From: Spirochaetaceae bacterium
Lineage (GTDB): Bacteria > Spirochaetota > Spirochaetia > SZUA-6 > Bin103
Direction: 5' to 3'
Assembly: GCA_028821475.1 (NCBI GenBank)
Contig: JAPPGB010000164.1
Location: 1 to 56,629 of the forward strand
DNA: 56,629 nt
Below the pieces are notes generated by a model. The model saw nothing but the letters and a program-made list of their open reading frames with translations, had not been told where the DNA came from and did no database searches. The position numbers and the translations under genes are program-made. Shown here one piece after another: positions 37,342 to 51,287 of this stretch (the stretch's first letter is position 1; the number at the start of each line of letters is the position of its first letter).

Positions 37342-38064
37342 CTATGATGGACGAAGCGGGGAAGCGGGTAGCTGATCCCACGTTCGGCCGTCCAGAGTTC
37401 GCCCCACCTTTTTCTTGAACACGCCACCCCATTGTTTGAAAAAGAACGGCACACCACAGCGCACGCAGTTGTCCCTGATATCGCGCACCCACTCGGGCTC
37501 CATCGGACGAGCGCCGGGGCCAGACTCACCTCCGGCTATCACCCAGTCGATACCTTGCAGCGGGATTCCGTGTAGTGGTCCGAGCAGAGGCTCAAGCGAC
37601 AGGAACCGAGTGCGAGCACCGGTTGCCCGGAGCTTCTTGAGCCGGCCTAGCCATCGTTCGGACTCGATACTCGTACCGAGCCAAATATTCGGCGTCCATG
37701 ATAATCGGTTGTTCAGCCGGACCGCACGGCTCGGTCGCTTGGTGAGAACCTGGAACGTATGTTGCGATGCGCGGTTCATGATTTTGAACACAGCTTCGAT
37801 AAATGTCGATGGTACTGCTTCGTGGAACAGGTCTGACATGGAGTTGACAAACACGATCCGCGGCCTCCGCCAAGTCAGCGGCTCACGGAGGATGCTTTCG
37901 TGAACTGTCACCGTAAACCCGTCACGGTACTTCTCCAACCCCATGGCTTGCAAACGATTGGCCATCCGCTCTGCGTAGCAGTACTTGCACCCATCACTGA
38001 TCTTCGTACAACCGGTCACCGGATTCCAGGTAACCTCGGTCCACTCAATAGTAGATCGCGACAT
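37342..38064 (-). CDS. DUF5131 (phage Gp37/Gp68) family protein with three-Cys motif
   Basis: This is a 240-aa protein. It begins SRSTIEWTEVTWNPVTGCTKISDGCKYCYAERMA, with a C-x5-C-x2-C cluster like that used by radical-SAM enzymes for a 4Fe-4S cluster. Then come FVNSMSDLFHEAVP, QVLTKRPSRA, NIWLGTSIES, FLSLEPLLGP and WVIAGGESGPGARPM, all signature strings of the DUF5131 family. The family is known from phage and defence-rich regions; its reaction is not established. It lies two bases downstream of its usual partner, the TcmP gene. Confidence 0.87.
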   Translation of the reverse strand: MSRSTIEWTEVTWNPVTGCTKISDGCKYCYAERMANRLQAMGLEKYRDGFTVTVHESILREPLTWRRPRIVFVNSMSDLFHEAVPSTFIEAVFKIMNRASQHTFQVLTKRPSRAVRLNNRLSWTPNIWLGTSIESERWLGRLKKLRATGARTRFLSLEPLLGPLHGIPLQGIDWVIAGGESGPGARPMEPEWVRDIRDNCVRCGVPFFFKQWGGVFKKKVGRTLDGRTWDQLPASPLRPS

Positions 38065-38066
38065 CG

Positions 38067-38930
38067 CTAGATATTGTCGACTATATGTTTCGCGATGCGT
38101 TTGGCCAGCGCGACTGCCCTTGGATTGCTGCTACCAACACAGAACATCATGACAAAGAGAGCCGAGCCCTTGGTGTTCTTGAGAATTCGAGTGTCCAATA
38201 GAAATCTCTCTCCGAATAGCTGAATGAGTTTCGTCTCGTAAATCGTCACGAGTCCGTCGATCCCAGGATCACGCTCATGCTCAACTCTCCCGAATAAGTC
38301 AAGCTGTCTACTCTCCCTATAGAGCTCTCGCCAGCTGTCGTCACCATACACTCGCTCTAGTCGATTGACCCATCCATCTGCAATTTCATCAGGCCGTTTC
38401 GATGTTGGAAGCATACGCGCAATTGCAGAGACGGGAAACATAATCCACGTGTCGAGCGCTCCAAATCCAGCTATCTTCTCGACGGTCGACCACTCCACCT
38501 GCGTTGCAAAAGGATCAAGAAACAACACACCACGCCATATGCTCCAGTCTTCGCGCAAATACCTCAGGTACTGATTCGCATCCATGTTTCTGACTTCGAT
38601 GTCCCTATCTCTGTGTTTATTCCGTAGCCGCTCCAGCTCGGCGTAGTGGCTCGGATCGTTTTCGACAAGGACTATCCTGTCGAACGGTTTGTCCTTCGTT
38701 AGCAGCGCTCTCATCGCGGAACCGTGTATGAATTCGGTTTCAGCCTGTCCAAACCCCACGCGGCCAGTGCCGGCAAACGCATCAATGTACATGAGTCGAA
38801 ACGGTTGGTTCTTCATTGCTGTCGTGTAACGATCGAGGTAGTGTCCTATTACACTCAGTTTCTCTATGGTCCATCCGCCACCGTACTCAGCTCGAGCTTC
38901 TGCCACTTGCTGCTGCATGATATTCGTCAT
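38067..38930 (-). CDS. tcmP: Three-Cys-motif partner protein TcmP
   Basis: This is about 287 aa. Features are the N-terminal block KLSVIGHYLDRYTTAM, a methyltransferase-like motif I YIDAFAGTGRVGFG, and a motif IV-like VLFLDPFATQVEWSTVEKIA. These match the TcmP family, which is regularly encoded beside DUF5131 proteins. The family resembles SAM methyltransferases but its substrate is unknown. I chose the ATG at 38930 (MTNIMQQQ); a longer frame upstream is not protein-like. A candidate promoter TTTACT-17-GACAAT lies just upstream on the minus strand. Confidence 0.85.
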   Translation of the reverse strand: MTNIMQQQVAEARAEYGGGWTIEKLSVIGHYLDRYTTAMKNQPFRLMYIDAFAGTGRVGFGQAETEFIHGSAMRALLTKDKPFDRIVLVENDPSHYAELERLRNKHRDRDIEVRNMDANQYLRYLREDWSIWRGVLFLDPFATQVEWSTVEKIAGFGALDTWIMFPVSAIARMLPTSKRPDEIADGWVNRLERVYGDDSWRELYRESRQLDLFGRVEHERDPGIDGLVTIYETKLIQLFGERFLLDTRILKNTKGSALFVMMFCVGSSNPRAVALAKRIAKHIVDNI

Positions 38931-39243
38931 AGATGTACATTGTCGCCGCACGTAGCAGAATAGTAAAGGGCTCGTTTCCGAGGACACACACCGAAATCTG
39001 TGTGCAACGTGTCCGGTTACTACTTGCGCCTTCGTCGTTCTGTGTACACGTTCCGGACGTCCAACCCGGGAATGAGGATCCAACACAGCGAGCGTTCAGC
39101 AATCCGAGCCAAGCCCGACACCGCGCTAGCCACCGGTGTAACACGACCTCCTTCAACTGACTCAACTGAGGCTGGCACGCGCCGTGGACTACGTGCGGGG
39201 CGGCGTGCGATGCTCGGTGTATAGATCTCTGACGGAGATGCCC
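38931..39243. other. Divergent intergenic region without a recognisable gene
   Basis: This is about 310 bases between the TcmP gene (minus) and the aminotransferase gene (plus). It presumably holds both promoters. On the minus strand TTTACT and GACAAT lie 17 bases apart near 38950-38985. I see no RNA gene or repeat. Confidence 0.5.
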
Positions 39244-43268: not shown

Positions 43269-45281
43269 TCAGAGATTCACCTTCTCTATGACCCTTATCT
43301 GCGCGAGCCAGCGACGAAAGGAGCTCCAAGGCACCGAACGTCGCCTCTCTTCGGCCGCAAGTTCACTCGACAATTCGTCATAGAAGCGGCTAGGATCGGC
43401 GAATCTCTTGGCAACGCTGAGTGGTAAGTCTGCGTCCCGTTCGGTCCGCATCGCCCAGTCGTGTAATGCTTCAATGGTGATTCCCTCGTTCGGCATTGGA
43501 CCGTGAACTCCAATAGTCGATGGTCTATACGGTCCTTTCGACCCATATCGCGTGAGAAACTGTGCGACCAGCCGATTGAACGGCTCGCCCCCCCACGTCT
43601 TCAACTCCAATCGGAAAATCTTCCAGGTGGTTGGATCTTGACACAACTGTCGAGCAAGCGCCCAAACCACACTACGACTAAGCGGCTGACCGCGACCAAC
43701 TGCCCTAATCCGAGCTATCCGTCTCGAACGATTCACCGAATCAGACAAGAACGAATCACCACCAGTGTCTTGGACTAACCTACGCATAGAGCCTCCGACA
43801 AACACGGCGTCACCCGAACGCGTATCGTTTGCCATGCGCAGCGCTGCCTCACCTGTTTTCGAATCACGGACGACAACGCTACTCTGTCCGGCTATGACGG
43901 TGTGAATTCGTCCGGCGTCTGCTACGTCAACCAAGCGATCGCAAGGAAGAAGCGCGCCACCGACATTCTTAAGGCGCCCGGTGTCGACCATGTCCCGTAC
44001 CACGCCTGCATGCGTGGTTGTACCCGCTTCTCTGGCAAGCGCTGCAAGCGTCAACCCTCTGTCGCTACGCATCGCCCGCCAGCATAGACTAACAACTTGC
44101 TGAAATCTTACTGACGCTCTATCATACTCGTGAGCGTCATCGAGCTCCCCTCTCCGTCCGCAGTCGACTAATGCGTGGAACACTTGCTCTTCCTCGATCG
44201 AACTCCTAAATCCCAAGACACGACAGATGTCACTGCGACGATTGCCGCGTCCGATGCGCTGGAGAAACGCACTTACACTGGCAGGCAGCTCCGCGAGCGC
44301 GACTGCATCTATGTCGCCGATGTCGATACCTAGCTCAAGCGTAGAGGTAGCTATACAGACCCCGCATTTCTCGCGCCGCATAAGATCCTCGACTCGTTCG
44401 CGGTGAGACGCCGAGAGGGCGCCAAAGTGCAGATGTACAGGCCAGCGCGTACCTTCGAGTTCTCGGTGAAGGTGTGCCGCTATCGAATGTGCTGTGTTTC
44501 GAGCGTTGGCGAAGATGAGTAGCTTATCGACATCGACGCTATCAAGCCATCTCGCGATTGCGCGAGCTCGACTCAGAAGCGGATCCTGCGCCGAGTCCTC
44601 CGGCACATCCAATAGCTCGCTTGTGATCTGCCGAGGTGAACCCTCCGACACAACCTTTGCTCCGTCTCCCAACCATATGTCGCGAACCGTCTCGATATCG
44701 TCAAGAGTTGCGGTCATCCCAACGACCTGAAATCTGTCCCGTTGCGAGGCGACCGAAGTCGAAGCCACCCTCAACCGATCTATAACATGTCGGAGTTGTT
44801 GTCCGCGCGGCTGCCCGTGCAACAGATGAATTTCGTCGATCACGACAGCGCGAACATCGGCAAGTGTCTCCGGGTGCCGCAACTGTAGCGAATCTAGAGC
44901 CTCCGGTGTCACCAAGACACAGAACCTTCCTACAGGATCGCGAAGTTCGTGCCGGTCGCCGGTATACCGAGCAAAGGCATTCGGAAACCTCGCCCGGAGC
45001 GCCCCGACTAATCTCTCGTACAGATCGTTTACGAGCGCCTTTGTCGGCGCGACATAAACGGTTGACAGCACTGATCTCCGAAAGGAAAGATGTCGTTGGA
45101 GGAGCGGCGCGATGGCTGCTTCCGTCTTTCCCGACGCTGTCGGAGCAGCGAACAGAACATCTTGCCCGCGAACAATCACGGGCATCACGGACGCTTGTGA
45201 ATCGTATGGTATGCGTCGATCGAAGAACACCGGAAAAGCATCCGGCATCATACGCTGTAGACTTTTCCGGGTCTCAGTCAT
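43269..45281 (-). CDS. Lhr-like superfamily 2 DEAD/DEAH-box helicase (BrxHI-like)
   Basis: This is about 670 aa. SF2 helicase motifs are in order: APTASGKT (about 46-53), VAPTKALVNDL, VLVTPEALDSL, VVIDEIHLLHG, GMTATL, LIFANARNTAHSIA, IATSTLELGIDIGDID and QRIGRGNRRSD. The sequence is of the Lhr/BrxHI kind and carries a C-terminal ~250-residue region with winged-helix character. The ATG at 45281 overlaps the stop of the upstream ATPase gene by eight bases, which decides the start over a longer frame to 45365. It is the last gene of the five-gene operon. A DNA-unwinding role in a defence complex is inferred. Confidence 0.85.
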   Translation of the reverse strand: MTETRKSLQRMMPDAFPVFFDRRIPYDSQASVMPVIVRGQDVLFAAPTASGKTEAAIAPLLQRHLSFRRSVLSTVYVAPTKALVNDLYERLVGALRARFPNAFARYTGDRHELRDPVGRFCVLVTPEALDSLQLRHPETLADVRAVVIDEIHLLHGQPRGQQLRHVIDRLRVASTSVASQRDRFQVVGMTATLDDIETVRDIWLGDGAKVVSEGSPRQITSELLDVPEDSAQDPLLSRARAIARWLDSVDVDKLLIFANARNTAHSIAAHLHRELEGTRWPVHLHFGALSASHRERVEDLMRREKCGVCIATSTLELGIDIGDIDAVALAELPASVSAFLQRIGRGNRRSDICRVLGFRSSIEEEQVFHALVDCGRRGELDDAHEYDRASVRFQQVVSLCWRAMRSDRGLTLAALAREAGTTTHAGVVRDMVDTGRLKNVGGALLPCDRLVDVADAGRIHTVIAGQSSVVVRDSKTGEAALRMANDTRSGDAVFVGGSMRRLVQDTGGDSFLSDSVNRSRRIARIRAVGRGQPLSRSVVWALARQLCQDPTTWKIFRLELKTWGGEPFNRLVAQFLTRYGSKGPYRPSTIGVHGPMPNEGITIEALHDWAMRTERDADLPLSVAKRFADPSRFYDELSSELAAEERRRSVPWSSFRRWLAQIRVIEKVNL

Positions 45282-46740
45282 CCCAAGGAAGAACTTCCCC
45301 TGACACTTCAACAGCCGCACGGCTAATTGCTTCAGCAAGTTCATCCGGCTCAAACTGTCTTTCATGGCTAAGCAAGACGGCTGGCCCCAAGCTTGCTAGT
45401 TTTGTCCAATTCCTCAACAGTCGGTCATCACCCGTCGCTTGCGCGAAGTTTGCCCTCAGGATACCGGCGATCTGAGTGCTCACTTGTGTGTCTGTGAGAA
45501 CGTGCACTTTCGGCCCAAGATGCTCCGCACAAGCCGCGAGGAAGTCCTCACACCAGCGTCCGTACGCTGCCTCGGGCGGTGGAGAAAGCTGCACGACATC
45601 CGATCCTTCTTGGACCAACAAACTCAAACTTACGTTACCGCTCGAAGCTGGCCGATCGTTAGATTCCGCCTCCGTCAGGCCCACAAAAAGCACAAAGTGA
45701 GGTCCTTCCTTCCAGAAGGACGGTAAACCTAGGTCACCATAGTCATCGTGTGGATCGGCAAGGTGTAGTTTCGGAGGCTGCGCACACCGAGCAAGCACGT
45801 CGAGAAAGTTGCTTGCCCGTACATATCGATTGACTGAGTACGTCCGGACATGCTCCGCCTCGTCGACGACGATTGCAAGCCCCTTGTACCCCAATTCGCG
45901 GAGGATGTGGTGTAGGACAACCAAATTGTAGGCATACACTACTCCGGTGTCCTTTACTTGAGGAAGAGAGGGTATCTTCTGCCTGTATCCGGCACGCCAA
46001 CTTAGCGATCGGATCGCTCGGATCTGCTTCACTTGCCCGGCGAGCCAGTTCACGGCGGCGACATAGTCGGGATCGTCTCGTCGGTGCGACAGATACAATA
46101 GAGCTCTAAGACCATGACGGAACCAAGGCGAACGCTTGACGTAGGGAAGCTCGCTGACAATTCCCCAATTCTGCCGAATCTCTTTAACGAGGTCGAAAAA
46201 GTCAATACTCTGAGAGCCATCTTCACGCGCTGGGAACTCTAGGCTGGCGATCAGCGCTTGGTAAACCGTGGACGGCTTGGCGGGATCGGCTGCTTTTGGA
46301 TCAAGTTCTAGGCACGCGGTGACCCAGCCGTCACGCAGGGCTACTGACCTTACCACTCGAAGGTGATGGGACTTCCCCGATCCATAGTATCCCAAATAGG
46401 TTCGGCACGCGCCGCGAACCGCCGCACGACTAAGCAACGCACTAAGCTCGGCATCGAGCTTCTGTCCCCCGATCGTAAGCTTTACTAGCCTAGTGGGATC
46501 GGTGGGAACGACTCCAAGATTGACAGCTTCGAATGTCTTACGAAACTCGATGTCTGAGACAGACTGCTCTTTCTGAGGAGGCAAGTTCGGCTTTGCGGAA
46601 CCAACACGAGTCTGCAATTCGGAGATCGCAACGTCGATTCTCTCGCCAAAGAATTCAACGGTCGCTACATCTCCGAAAACCGTCACTACATTGCCAATTC
46701 CGAATTCGATATGCTCTACTTCAGATCCTGCGTCAATCAT
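45274..46740 (-). CDS. BrxD/DUF2791-like P-loop ATPase B
   Basis: This is about 488 aa. A ~45-residue N-terminal segment (EVEHIEFGIGNVVTVFGDVATVEFFGERI) looks like a small beta barrel of the SH3/CarD-helicase type. It is followed by FEAVNLGVVPTDPTRLVKLTIGG, the Walker A TYLGYYGSGKSHHLRVV (about 117-124), a Walker B GLAIVVDEAEHV, and the ATPase C-terminal half. The order and motifs match BREX BrxD-type (DUF2791) proteins. I chose the ATG at 46740, which overlaps the stop of ATPase A by eight bases; an in-frame TTG/ATG pair lies further up. Confidence 0.83.
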   Translation of the reverse strand: MIDAGSEVEHIEFGIGNVVTVFGDVATVEFFGERIDVAISELQTRVGSAKPNLPPQKEQSVSDIEFRKTFEAVNLGVVPTDPTRLVKLTIGGQKLDAELSALLSRAAVRGACRTYLGYYGSGKSHHLRVVRSVALRDGWVTACLELDPKAADPAKPSTVYQALIASLEFPAREDGSQSIDFFDLVKEIRQNWGIVSELPYVKRSPWFRHGLRALLYLSHRRDDPDYVAAVNWLAGQVKQIRAIRSLSWRAGYRQKIPSLPQVKDTGVVYAYNLVVLHHILRELGYKGLAIVVDEAEHVRTYSVNRYVRASNFLDVLARCAQPPKLHLADPHDDYGDLGLPSFWKEGPHFVLFVGLTEAESNDRPASSGNVSLSLLVQEGSDVVQLSPPPEAAYGRWCEDFLAACAEHLGPKVHVLTDTQVSTQIAGILRANFAQATGDDRLLRNWTKLASLGPAVLLSHERQFEPDELAEAISRAAVEVSGEVLPWDD

Positions 46741-48028
46741 CCGGCCCACCGCCAAGAGGTGGCTCGTTCCCATCGACAAAGTGACGCGCTTGCTCGGAGC
46801 TGATAGACTGTTCGAGTTCCAATTGCTGATAGAGAAAGCGACAATATTGGTATACGAAAAACCTCGGCTTGGGCGTTTCGAACTCCTTCTGTTCCTGCGC
46901 GCGTACGACCTTTCTCATATTCGAAAGCTGGAGCTTCTCGTTCCATTGCCTATCATACGCACGACCAAAGACGCTGAGTAGCTTTTCTCCGATGCTGTAG
47001 ACCACGTCTTGCGAGTAAGCTTCCTCGATATTGATGAGGGGCACCAGCGGACTGCCCACGGAAAACGCTTTCGTCCCGATGCGATCCTGAAGAGCACGAT
47101 ATGTGCTGATGACTTCCGCGCGGAAATCGGGTGTTGCAGCGTAAATAAACATAACACCTCCGAATTCACCCTCGGCGTTTTGGTTGATCATTGTCAGGAG
47201 ATTTTCGATTGCCTGTCGCTGCCTCGGAGACCCGCGCCGAAACGACGACGTTCGAGTTCCTTCGTCGAACGCAATAACGAAGCCGCGATAAGCCATACGC
47301 GTGCGCAAGAAAGAGATCACTGTCTTGAGCCGGCGAAAGGCGTTGTCATCCCGTGCCGGCTCATATAGTCCGCTGGCTCGTAGTCGGCTAGAGCGAGCAT
47401 TCTCACCCCTTATCCAAGCTATCAATTCGATGTCTGACACGGCATCGACAGCTCCGCATGCCAACTCCAACAGCCGCTTACTAAGCTGCGCGAGCGCGGC
47501 CGCCATCTGAGGGTCCGGGGCGCCCCGCCACAGCCCCACAATCTGCTGTTCAAGCTGCCTCTGTACCAGCTCCGGGACGTCTTCACCGGGCTCCGCGCCA
47601 AGTTGTCTGATTCTTCGATGGATCCAGCTGTCAATCAAGACCTCAATTCCCTTTGAATCGTCGTCCGCGGAATGTTCGCTGAAAGGAGGCTGAAAAGACT
47701 CCATAACCGCCCGAAATATTCCTACCGGAGAGTTGAACGGACACTCGACGCCAACCGTCACGATGGACGTAACTATCTCCTGCTCACTCGCCCTTCGAGA
47801 AAGACTATTAATGAACTGCGTCTTTCCACTCCCGTAGTCGCCCTCGAGATACTTGAAACACCCAATACCGGCTGCTAACTGGCCTCGAAAGTAGTTGTGA
47901 TCAAGCGCGTTAAGTATGTGGTCGGTCCCGGAATTGATAAAATACGAATACCTACCTGGCGCAATCGGGGCGTTCATCAACACCTGCAACAGACGAAGGG
48001 CATCGTTCTTGCTGATCGTCACTTCCAC
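46733..48028 (-). CDS. BrxD/DUF2791-like P-loop ATPase A
   Basis: This is a 431-aa ATPase. It opens ISKNDALRLLQVLMNAPIAPGRYSYFINSGTDHILNAL, then Walker A FKYLEGDYGSGKTQFIN (63-70), the Walker B strand FVIAFDEGT, and a sensor-like MFIYAATPDF. This is the DUF2791/BrxD layout without the N-terminal barrel of ATPase B, so the two are distinct members that may form a hetero-oligomer. The GTG start has a strong ribosome site (GAGGAGG) lying across the preceding stop codon. It is the third gene of the operon. Confidence 0.84.
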   Translation of the reverse strand: MEVTISKNDALRLLQVLMNAPIAPGRYSYFINSGTDHILNALDHNYFRGQLAAGIGCFKYLEGDYGSGKTQFINSLSRRASEQEIVTSIVTVGVECPFNSPVGIFRAVMESFQPPFSEHSADDDSKGIEVLIDSWIHRRIRQLGAEPGEDVPELVQRQLEQQIVGLWRGAPDPQMAAALAQLSKRLLELACGAVDAVSDIELIAWIRGENARSSRLRASGLYEPARDDNAFRRLKTVISFLRTRMAYRGFVIAFDEGTRTSSFRRGSPRQRQAIENLLTMINQNAEGEFGGVMFIYAATPDFRAEVISTYRALQDRIGTKAFSVGSPLVPLINIEEAYSQDVVYSIGEKLLSVFGRAYDRQWNEKLQLSNMRKVVRAQEQKEFETPKPRFFVYQYCRFLYQQLELEQSISSEQARHFVDGNEPPLGGGPDD

Positions 48029-48042
48029 TCCTTTCCTCCTCT

Positions 48043-48930
48043 TTAGCCCATCTTTCGCCGCATATAGATCATCGGCCTCACTATCGTCCCCTCTGCGTTA
48101 GCCGGCACGAAGAATGGTCGCGATCTGGGACCGTGAGCTTGGTTGAGCGTCGCCGGCACCAATTCAAAGCGATCCTTCCTTCCGGATGATGACCGATGTC
48201 GGCGCCAATTGATTAGATTCGAAACAAAGACGGCCTCCGGCACATCTTCAAAGTACCGCCGTGACGGGTTGCCCCAAAACCGCGGACTTTGCACGGCCAC
48301 CTTGAACAACCTCGCGACATCTGAAATTAGTACCTCTTCACCCTCTGAGATGTGCTTTGCGATGCCCCACGAGAGCTCTAATCGATCGAGAAAAATGTCA
48401 ATCGGAAGGGTCCACCTATCAACGGCTTGGTCGGCAGCCACAAATCCGGCGACTACGTATCGGACGTCGGCGGGAATCTTTTCGACGACCGGATAGTGAC
48501 GTGTCATAGACCAAGACCAATTTTGGCCACCCGTGTCGGAAACAAGAATCAAGCGACCGGCAAAGAACTGATTGTCCTTGCTTCCGGTACGTACACCCTG
48601 CAGCTTGCTCATCACTTGAAGGGCAAACCGTCGACGGTTCTCTAGATGTCTCATTCGTTCCGCATGCTCTCGAACTGCCCGCGTCGCCTCCAAGACCTCT
48701 CCGACGACCGCCGGTCGATTGGCACCCTCTTCGGAAAGTGTTAATCCAGCGAGCTCCTGCTGCCGCTCGATGACCGCTGGTGGCATGTCGAGACCGTCGG
48801 CGCGAGTGTGTCCTTGACCGAGTATCCGCGGGAGTCGTGCAGCCAAGATACCGCGAGCGTTAGCCAACAGGCCGGTCTGCTCGACGAACTCGGCAAATGC
48901 GGGAAACAAAATGGGCTGCTCTTCCGTCAC
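48043..48930 (-). CDS. Unknown 295-aa protein of the helicase/ATPase operon
   Basis: I do not recognise a family. The N-terminal third is helical and charged (QQELAGLTLSEEGANRPAVV, RAVREHAERMRHLENRRRFALQVMSKL). The middle and C-terminal parts alternate strands and helices (NQFFAGRLILVSDTGGQNWSWS, RYVVAGFVAADQAVDRWTLPIDIFLDRLELSWGIAKHI). There is no signal peptide, membrane segment or nuclease motif. The GTG start lies 20 bases after the SF1 helicase gene and the stop 14 bases before ATPase A, so it is a core part of the operon. It could be the adaptor or target-recognition subunit. Confidence 0.7.
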   Translation of the reverse strand: MTEEQPILFPAFAEFVEQTGLLANARGILAARLPRILGQGHTRADGLDMPPAVIERQQELAGLTLSEEGANRPAVVGEVLEATRAVREHAERMRHLENRRRFALQVMSKLQGVRTGSKDNQFFAGRLILVSDTGGQNWSWSMTRHYPVVEKIPADVRYVVAGFVAADQAVDRWTLPIDIFLDRLELSWGIAKHISEGEEVLISDVARLFKVAVQSPRFWGNPSRRYFEDVPEAVFVSNLINWRRHRSSSGRKDRFELVPATLNQAHGPRSRPFFVPANAEGTIVRPMIYMRRKMG

Positions 48931-48950
48931 CTATCAGGGCACCTCTTGAT

Positions 48951-51251
48951 TCAGGATTGTGTTAAATCGAATAGTCGCCGCGACACGCGCCGAAGAATTG
49001 ACGGAAAGTCCTCGGCCACGATGAATAGTCGCCGCGTTGGTCGCGAGAGCGCGACATATGCTCGATTGATGGTGCAGTTTAACGATGCACTCTCGACCTC
49101 CTCCAACCCAAGGATAATGCACGCGTCAAACTCGATCCCCTTAATTCGCTCGACGGACGTCGTAAGCAGGCCTTTACCAGATCCTGCCCACGCCGGCGCG
49201 AGAGGCATGCCGAGGCGACGAAGCTCGGAACGCATGCGGATGAGGGATTGGTCGTCTTCATTTATCTGAAGGAGCGCTACACTCTCTATATCCGCCGAGC
49301 GTCGCAGCACGGCTACGAGTTGGCTAATTCGAAGCGCATGACGATGTGGCGGGGATAGAATCAAGTGCGGCTTAATGTCCTCGAGCACATCGTTAACAGA
49401 GAAAGTCGGTCGCTCACCGAAAGCCTGTTCGTAGAAGCCTTGTAGAAAACTCCCGATTTGCTTACTTTGCCGCATATTTCTAGCAAACGGAAAGACGCGG
49501 TCTGCTCCGTACTCGCGTATTGTACTTCCAACGTGAAGCGCCTCCGGCGACGTCATTCCACGAACCGGGCTGACGATCTGCCGAAAGTCTGAGGACACTG
49601 TCAAGGCTCCGCGCGGATCGACAAGTGAGGAGATCAGCGAGGCAGCGGCTACACTGAGATCTTGCGCCTCGTCGATCACGATGTGAGTCCATCGAAGGTC
49701 GCCGGTCATTGCGGGGACGATGGCGGCGGGCACATTAAAGAATCCCGAGTGCGGGTCGTTAGTCTCCGGAAGCACGAAACGCAGGAGCCAAGCGATCCAG
49801 GGGCGATCGTCCAAACTGTAAATGCGGTCGGTCCAGTCTTCCAGCATGTTACGGAGCACGGTTGCCTCGTCCACCCTACTTCCAGTACCACGACGCATCC
49901 TATAAGCTGCTTCGGCGCTCCTGCTACCAAAGTATGATTTCAATGCCGACAGAGGGTCATATACGTCGTACAACCATTGGTGAAATAGTGAGTCGAAGCG
50001 TCGACGCGATCCACGAGGTACGGACAACCTCGCCCGGGAATAGCTATCTCCGACCGACGAATGGACCGCTTGCATCGACAATCTTGAGGCCGAGGGGTCA
50101 GTACCAATCCGGACTTGGGAGCTAACCGCAGCAAGACGGCTTGCCAGATCTGCAAGAGCACCTCGTTCGTCTCGACCGAGCGCCATCCATGATGAGCGGC
50201 GGGCAAACTTGAGCTTGGAAACGATTTGCCGCTCGTAGACCTCCCATAGGCGCATGAGGTCATGGTGGTCCGAAAGGCCCAACACAGCGGCTCGTGCGGC
50301 GCGTTCCAGCGGAGAGAGTGTTCTTTGACGTGGACGAGCACCATGCCTATACGGCCAAGTATGGCTGATATAGCTATCGATGAACTCTCTAACAGACAGG
50401 ACGATATGTTCGGGGATATCTAGTTCTTCGTTCAATAAGCGCTTCGCTTGCTCGGCCAAGTTGTCGTTTGCTAGAAAAACGCGCGTCAGGCTTGGTTCAT
50501 AGTGAACGCCGTGGTTGTCGGACCAACCCTCATATTGCTGGTCAAAAAGAAGTCGGATGCGCTGGAAGGCGACGGTTGTCTTTCCCGATCCTGGAGCTCC
50601 CGTTACGATCATCAGACCGGTCATCCGGGATATGAACGCAGACACCTGGTCACTTGTCATATCCAATTTCACGGACTTTAGTCCAATCTTGGCACGCGCA
50701 GAGGTGCGTGGGCGTACGGCTCCACCAGGCTGATAAACACCAGAAATCTCAGGGAACAGGTTGTCGAATCGAGCTCTTGCAGAGGGCTCTACGCTGATTA
50801 GTCGGTAACCGGGCTCGCGGATACTCTTGCGGTCACCAATCTCGTGCGTTATTGCAATCTGGAGCCCGGGATGTGTCCAAGAAAGTACATTCAACGACTG
50901 ACCGCTATGACTTAGGACCTCGTTTGACGAGGAATTTGTATTTGCATACCAGAGTTGCTTCTGTTTTGTTGGTTTGTCGCCGTCACCGGCGACTTCGGTG
51001 CTGACCTCCACCATAACGTGGAATGGTTCGTCGGTAATTGCTTCAAGGGCTGCACGGCGTCGACGGAATGTCTGTCTGCGACGATTGGTTGGGTCTGGCG
51101 GATCAGTGATGGAGGGGGGCGGTGGCGGTCGGAGATTCGTAAGTTGGAATCTTGCCGCTTCAACAGCGAGGTCGGCATTCCGACGATCTCGCCTTACCCG
51201 GTCATCAAGTGTTGATTCGGTGGGGAGTCCGTGTCCACCCGCTTCGTTCAC
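48951..51251 (-). CDS. UvrD/Rep-type superfamily 1 helicase-like protein
   Basis: This is 766 aa. A ~210-residue N-terminal region precedes the motor and has no recognised domain. Motor motifs: GAPGSGKTTVAFQRI (about 218-232, motif I), TRVFLANDNLAEQAKRLL (Ia), WTHIVIDEAQDLSVAAASL (II), TVSSDFRQIV (III), VERIKGIEFDACIILGLEEV (V), and NRAYVALSRPTRRLFIV (VI). The arrangement fits UvrD_C_2 or HelD-like helicases. The GTG start coincides with the expected transcription start of a TTGACA/CATACT promoter. It leads the five-gene operon. Confidence 0.83.
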   Translation of the reverse strand: MNEAGGHGLPTESTLDDRVRRDRRNADLAVEAARFQLTNLRPPPPPSITDPPDPTNRRRQTFRRRRAALEAITDEPFHVMVEVSTEVAGDGDKPTKQKQLWYANTNSSSNEVLSHSGQSLNVLSWTHPGLQIAITHEIGDRKSIREPGYRLISVEPSARARFDNLFPEISGVYQPGGAVRPRTSARAKIGLKSVKLDMTSDQVSAFISRMTGLMIVTGAPGSGKTTVAFQRIRLLFDQQYEGWSDNHGVHYEPSLTRVFLANDNLAEQAKRLLNEELDIPEHIVLSVREFIDSYISHTWPYRHGARPRQRTLSPLERAARAAVLGLSDHHDLMRLWEVYERQIVSKLKFARRSSWMALGRDERGALADLASRLAAVSSQVRIGTDPSASRLSMQAVHSSVGDSYSRARLSVPRGSRRRFDSLFHQWLYDVYDPLSALKSYFGSRSAEAAYRMRRGTGSRVDEATVLRNMLEDWTDRIYSLDDRPWIAWLLRFVLPETNDPHSGFFNVPAAIVPAMTGDLRWTHIVIDEAQDLSVAAASLISSLVDPRGALTVSSDFRQIVSPVRGMTSPEALHVGSTIREYGADRVFPFARNMRQSKQIGSFLQGFYEQAFGERPTFSVNDVLEDIKPHLILSPPHRHALRISQLVAVLRRSADIESVALLQINEDDQSLIRMRSELRRLGMPLAPAWAGSGKGLLTTSVERIKGIEFDACIILGLEEVESASLNCTINRAYVALSRPTRRLFIVAEDFPSILRRVSRRLFDLTQS

Positions 51252-51257
51252 GACTTG

Positions 51258-51287
51258 AGTATGCTAGGTCTCGATGAGACTTGTCAA
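51258..51287 (-). promoter_or_regulatory. Promoter with internal inverted repeat for the five-gene operon
   Basis: On the minus strand TTGACA (51282-51287), an 18-base spacer and CATACT (51258-51263) precede the GTG at 51251 by seven bases, implying a leaderless transcript. Within the spacer GTCTC-GAT-GAGAC (51268-51280) is a perfect inverted repeat, a likely operator. Confidence 0.55.

Follow-up and report, generated by a model that had tools for sequence, protein, structure and literature searches.

The window analysed here, a stretch of 56,629 nucleotides from a Spirochaetaceae bacterium (contig JAPPGB010000164.1, forward strand), carries five adjacent genes for two helicases, two ATPases and a 295-aa protein. 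A first-pass annotation, made from the sequence alone, proposed that they form an undescribed defence system. We asked whether these genes are a conserved unit of their own, a derivative of a known system such as Shango or type 2 BREX, or a module for another purpose.

Organization of the operon

The operon spans 43269-51251 on the minus strand and consists of five co-directional ORFs, all of which are intact (Table 1). When ATG 46740 and ATG 45281 were taken as the starts of ATPase B and the SF2 helicase, the junctions in gene order were +20, +14, -8 and -8 bases, exactly as described in the annotation. Its gene assignments also held: both of the two different BrxD-like ATPases matched Pfam BrxC_BrxD, the SF2 helicase was identified as Lhr-like by its Pfam domains and PADLOC, and the 295-aa protein, described as unknown, had no match in Pfam, PADLOC or NCBIfam. 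Neither PglX nor PglW was detected among the operon genes in these searches.

Table 1 Features of the operon and its surroundings in the window.
Feature	Positions	Strand	Remarks
SF1 helicase, 766 aa	51251-48951	-	Distantly HelD-like; apparently accessory gene common only to the window and Falsiroseomonas
295-aa core subunit	48930-48043	-	Helical N-terminus, central beta strands, putative C-terminal winged helix
ATPase A, 431 aa	48028-46733	-	ORC/Cdc6-type BrxD-like AAA+; PF10923 1.9e-35
ATPase B, 488 aa from ATG	46740-45274	-	Diverged paralogue; PF10923 4.3e-19
SF2 helicase, 670 aa from ATG	45281-43269	-	Lhr/BrxHI/SngC-like; DEAD + Helicase_C
Block absent from same-genus genome	41939..51454		9.5 kb; five genes and DUF5677 gene
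DUF5677 protein, 311 aa	42021..42956	-	PF18928 1.9e-12; 48% GC; inside the same block
TcmP + DUF5131 radical-SAM pair	37342-39086	-	PADLOC candidate PDC-M41, 1.3e-66 and 9.8e-115

Two ATPases and an SF2 helicase outside the known clades

In PADLOC, ATPases A and B both matched BrxD and the Shango ATPase SngB. The Walker A and Walker B motifs are GDYGSGKT and VIAFDE in ATPase A, and GYYGSGKS and AIVVDE in ATPase B. A regular expression recovered both motifs in nearly all A and B proteins; for Walker A it missed two plasmid B proteins, in which GSGK[ST] is present, and a truncated frame from a planctomycete locus. Against the NCBIfam BrxD equivalog, the two ATPases scored 77.5 and 52.3 bits, far below the cut-off of 350. 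Phylogenetic analysis placed A (17 rows) and B (19 rows) in separate supported clades, each including the window protein, and BrxD and SngB formed further clades apart from both; the small plasmid, fusion and three-gene groups lay on long branches, and their placement is unsure. ATPases A and B are two ancient paralogues distinct from BrxD and SngB.

The PADLOC matches of the SF2 helicase to BrxHI (1.4e-60) and SngC (4.8e-57) were nearly equal. In the helicase tree, the module helicases formed their own clade, with a 100/100 split from BrxHI and SngC jointly. The annotation had cited type 2 BREX; the nearest named relatives also include Shango, represented by SngB and SngC, which had been overlooked.

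Because the best PADLOC matches are BrxD/SngB and BrxHI/SngC and the ATPase-helicase pairing is the same, the module could be regarded as a degraded or divergent Shango or type 2 BREX that lost TerB or PglZ, PglX and PglW. We consider this improbable, and it is already disfavoured: the module helicases and ATPases are placed, with strong support, outside the clades of BrxHI, SngC, BrxD and SngB, and the pair of ATPases together with the ~290-aa subunit is a constant feature. SngA (TerB) had no match in the window proteins or the module loci, although several true Shango loci did match. The annotation had also described the module as PglZ-free, and PF08665 matched neither the window genome nor that of Falsiroseomonas, the second genome with all five genes. 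PglZ was absent from 10 of the 18 genomes examined.

Conservation of a four-gene core

By scanning 84,980 genomes with the helicase alignment, we identified the alphaproteobacterium Falsiroseomonas tokyonensis (L044) as a carrier of the complete five-gene set in unchanged order. The E-values were 5e-284 for SF1, 2e-135 for the 295-aa protein, 2e-208 for ATPase A, 4e-184 for ATPase B and 9e-257 for SF2, and identities to the window proteins ranged from 58% (SF1 and ATPase B) to 73% (ATPase A). Four genes, encoding the ~290-aa protein, ATPase A, ATPase B and the Lhr-like SF2 helicase, occurred on the same strand and in the same order at 20 loci. These comprise the window, L044, 15 further scanned loci (from Methanoperedens, Myxococcota, WOR-3, Acidobacteriota, Chloroflexota, Chlamydiota, Latescibacterota and Desulfobacterales), one Aulosira and one Desulfomonile plasmid, and another genome of the window's phylum, in which the SF2 helicase is frameshifted (L031:6887-8600). 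The core is thereby spread over at least 10 phyla, including an archaeon. Its compact members have junctions of a few bases or short overlaps. The planctomycete locus (L058) has the last three core genes, and one helicase-clade member (L046) is without recognisable partner genes; some members of this clade sit on short or broken contigs.

Since the loci were recruited via the helicase, the co-presence of the other three core genes is independent evidence. The occurrence of five genes in order in an alphaproteobacterium and of four in order at 20 loci indicates that the gene order is not due to chance. Pairwise distances of the four core genes correlated with r of 0.90-0.94 (n = 19), as expected if the genes travel together, although plain linkage predicts the same. 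The annotation had treated the five genes as one unit. This stands for L044, but all five co-occur only there and in the window; the conserved core consists of four genes, to which the SF1 helicase is, judging from this distribution, an accessory in one sub-clade.

Among 393 genomes of the window's phylum, the window's own 295-aa protein was the sole convincing match; weak matches (E about 0.002-0.007) were taken as chance. Searches of viral contigs and plasmids gave no close relative of either the 295-aa protein or SF1. A search of open-access papers retrieved no published name for the four-gene set, which is apparently widespread and unnamed.

A three-gene relative, encoding a ~260-aa protein and ATPase A-like and B-like proteins, was observed at five loci (L030, L032, L034, L040 and L043) in one family of the window's class. 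At L032, L040 and L043, it is accompanied by a divergent PbeA-like helicase that lacks the N-terminal part of PbeA.

The 295-aa protein

The 295-aa protein was tied by phmmer, directly or via intermediates, to the proteins at the same position of other core loci. Its L044 ortholog detected the proteins of L066 (7e-8), L067, L069 and L109; these in turn led to L045, L047, L048 and L054, and from there to the plasmid proteins. When the 295-aa protein was compared directly with the Aulosira/Desulfomonile pair at profile level, the similarity was not significant, and this link was visible only through the intermediates. In a 17-row alignment of the ~290-aa family, the N-terminus was helical and variable, and a C-terminal pattern was common to all members.

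The AlphaFold model (AF2) of the 295-aa protein had a pLDDT of 78 and a pTM of 0.71. Residues 177-289 of the model follow a helix-strand-helix-helix-strand-strand order, as in a winged helix, and this predicted order of secondary structures suggests that the C-terminus is a winged helix. Foldseek against PDB returned nothing significant, with no E-value below 0.5; the top match, the C-terminal winged helix of yeast Cdt1 (E 0.54), followed lower down by several ORC chains, serves as a lead only. Given the winged helix-like C-terminus of the model, a DNA-binding or adaptor role is plausible for this protein.

SF1-type motors joined to the core

The SF1 helicase has the Walker A motif GAPGSGKT at residues about 218-225 and showed weak matches to UvrD, GajB and HelD-type motors. 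The likeness to HelD had been missed in the annotation: the best PDB match was HelD (6yxu, 8.5e-7), and NCBIfam HelD/HelR families were matched at about 1e-8 and about 31 bits, where the cut-offs are 419 or higher. This likeness is restricted to the helicase motifs, the N-terminal region being unmatched, and the structure model (pLDDT 37) was unusable. The ortholog in Falsiroseomonas lies at L044:4043-6337, and 295 other genomes of the window's phylum gave no match for a HelD-like SF1 helicase.

HelD and HelR being the closest proteins to SF1 in PDB and NCBIfam, and the SF1 N-terminus being about as long as that of HelD, SF1 might serve as the effector, removing RNA polymerase from foreign templates or inactivating it there, with the rest of the module targeting SF1. 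We think this very improbable, as SF1 is present in only two module loci and its similarity to HelD is motif-confined and far under the family cut-offs.

At three other loci, the SF2 helicase is C-terminally fused, in a giant protein, to a different SF1 helicase of the AAA_11/AAA_12, Upf1/IGHMBP2-like type (L062:9983-15328, L068:10013-15682 and L102:8471-14365). Together with the HelD-like gene, these fusions indicate that an SF1-type motor was joined to the core at least twice. The L102 fusion also contains a weak Cas4-like match (E 0.008) between its SF2 and SF1 parts.

Horizontal acquisition of the operon

The operon was horizontally acquired. A genome of the same genus (G002, locus L134) is collinear with the window up to 41938 and again from 51455, with 88-91% DNA identity, and lacks the intervening block; in this genome, only about 100 bp separate the glycosidase-like gene from the aldose-epimerase gene of the flanks. 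The GC content of the block is 54.6%, compared with 71-72% in the flanks. This contrast favours insertion in the window over deletion in G002, although the latter is formally possible. Neither an integrase nor a clear target-site repeat was seen at the block. The DUF5677 gene is probably cargo of the same insertion; it is absent beside the operon copy of L044. The TcmP and DUF5131 pair, with 53.6% GC adjoining a flank of 72% GC, is probably a second acquired defence-type unit. The operon is conserved and mobile, and the earlier description of a stand-alone module is supported, PglZ being absent from both five-gene genomes.

Genomic context and proposed function

In Chloroflexota and Acidobacteriota, extra genes are nested in the operon, either between the two ATPase genes or between the genes of ATPase B and the SF2 helicase. 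They encode HigB, PIN proteins (one of them with a MazE-like partner), RelE with an antitoxin, an AbiEii-like nucleotidyltransferase, an HNH protein and an N6/N4 methylase that may be paired with an endonuclease. The Aulosira core copy directly adjoins a set of PglZ, BrxD-like and BrxHI-like genes, and a plasmid-borne core lies near an AbiE pair. Many core loci are flanked by ordinary metabolic genes rather than defence islands. PADLOC analysis of 133 neighbouring ORFs gave some defence-type matches, inflated by generic helicase and ATPase families and obtained without a control set.

Toxin-antitoxin, PIN, HNH, OLD-like ATPase or restriction-modification genes were located inside or right behind the ATPase pair at L057, L061, L065, L066, L067, L069 and L109. 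About 1.7 kb behind the module of L066, a strong match to a DpdF/PsyrT-type helicase was found (L066:10844-13687, 9.6e-219).

The toxin-antitoxin, restriction-modification or nuclease genes nested in several relatives make defence the best reading. We consider a defence function likely on this comparative evidence, and the five-gene operon probably acts against viruses or plasmids, as a system that is related to Shango and BREX but distinct from both. A different function was weighed, namely that of a mobile module for DNA maintenance or repair (replication restart, fork clearing or plasmid upkeep), the ATPases of which load helicases on the DNA of the host or of the element itself. ORC/Cdc6-like ATPases, an Lhr-like helicase and a HelD-like motor would all suit replication or repair, the operon is nuclease-free, many chromosomal neighbours are metabolic and one plasmid copy is near ParA. 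However, the very patchy distribution (1 of 393 phylum genomes, the window's own, with a convincing 295-aa match), the foreign GC content, the empty site and the nested genes all argue against it, and the closest functional relatives are defence systems; we judge maintenance or repair to be unlikely.

For the defence reading, we infer complex formation and helicase loading as well as defence itself, and rate the loading mechanism lower than defence. ATPases A and B would form a mixed ORC/Cdc6-like AAA+ complex, which the 295-aa protein may tether to DNA via its helical N-terminus and putative winged helix, and this complex would put the Lhr-like SF2 helicase on invading DNA. Where present, the HelD-like SF1 helicase could act as a second motor that remodels this DNA too, for instance by stripping off RNA polymerase or other proteins bound to it. 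Since the window operon encodes no nuclease, the module would act by keeping the invader from being replicated or expressed, or by making its DNA accessible to nucleases of the host; the toxin or nuclease genes nested in several relatives could provide a killing back-up. On balance, we lean towards a horizontally mobile immune-type module in which an ATPase A-B complex and the 295-aa adaptor load the SF2 helicase on invading DNA. More tentatively, it may exemplify a previously unnamed immune system that spans phyla and works by a logic like that of MCM loading by ORC, Cdc6 and Cdt1. An ORC/Cdc6-like loader of hetero-oligomeric make-up, aided by an adaptor with a winged helix, would deliver one or two helicases to the DNA of the invader; the SF1 motor would be exchangeable, and the nested toxin or nuclease genes would be cargo.

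Comparison with known systems

PbeABCD (PMC6459918) was considered owing to the PbeA matches next to three-gene relatives, but its gene content speaks against it: only the divergent SF2 helicases beside the three-gene sets of L032, L040 and L043 resemble PbeA, whereas PbeC is an ABC ATPase and PbeD is related to DndE (PMC10853773), both unrelated to the module ATPases. The SF1 helicase resembles the RNA polymerase recycling motors HelD and HelR in its motor motifs and in the distance of Walker A from the N-terminus, but its N-terminal region is unmatched and its operon context is different.

Shango, which consists of the TerB protein SngA, the ATPase SngB and the helicase SngC, is experimentally antiphage (PMC10250203). 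The module shares with it a BrxC/D-family ATPase beside an Lhr/BrxHI-like SF2 helicase in a stand-alone operon without PglZ, but has no TerB gene, two ATPases instead of one and a different subunit of ~290 aa; SngB and SngC also belong to supported clades of their own. Type 2 BREX likewise contains a linked pair of an ORC/Cdc6-type ATPase, BrxD, and a Ski2/Lhr-like SF2 helicase, BrxHI (PMC12839542); loading of BrxHI by BrxD-type ATPases is a published suggestion only (PMC12839542). From this system the module is set apart by the lack of PglZ in the window and Falsiroseomonas genomes, by the separate clades and by ATPase scores below the BrxD equivalog cut-off. By the tests made, the module is a member of neither system, yet would work like the BrxD-BrxHI or Shango ATPase-helicase pair. 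It represents a third, separate lineage of such pairs, one that comes with two ancient ATPases and a putative adaptor of its own. As the core genes are few and intact, and as Falsiroseomonas tokyonensis strain K-20, a named isolate, carries them, the role of BrxD-type ATPases for their helicases is testable in a simple system free of methylase, phosphatase and nuclease.
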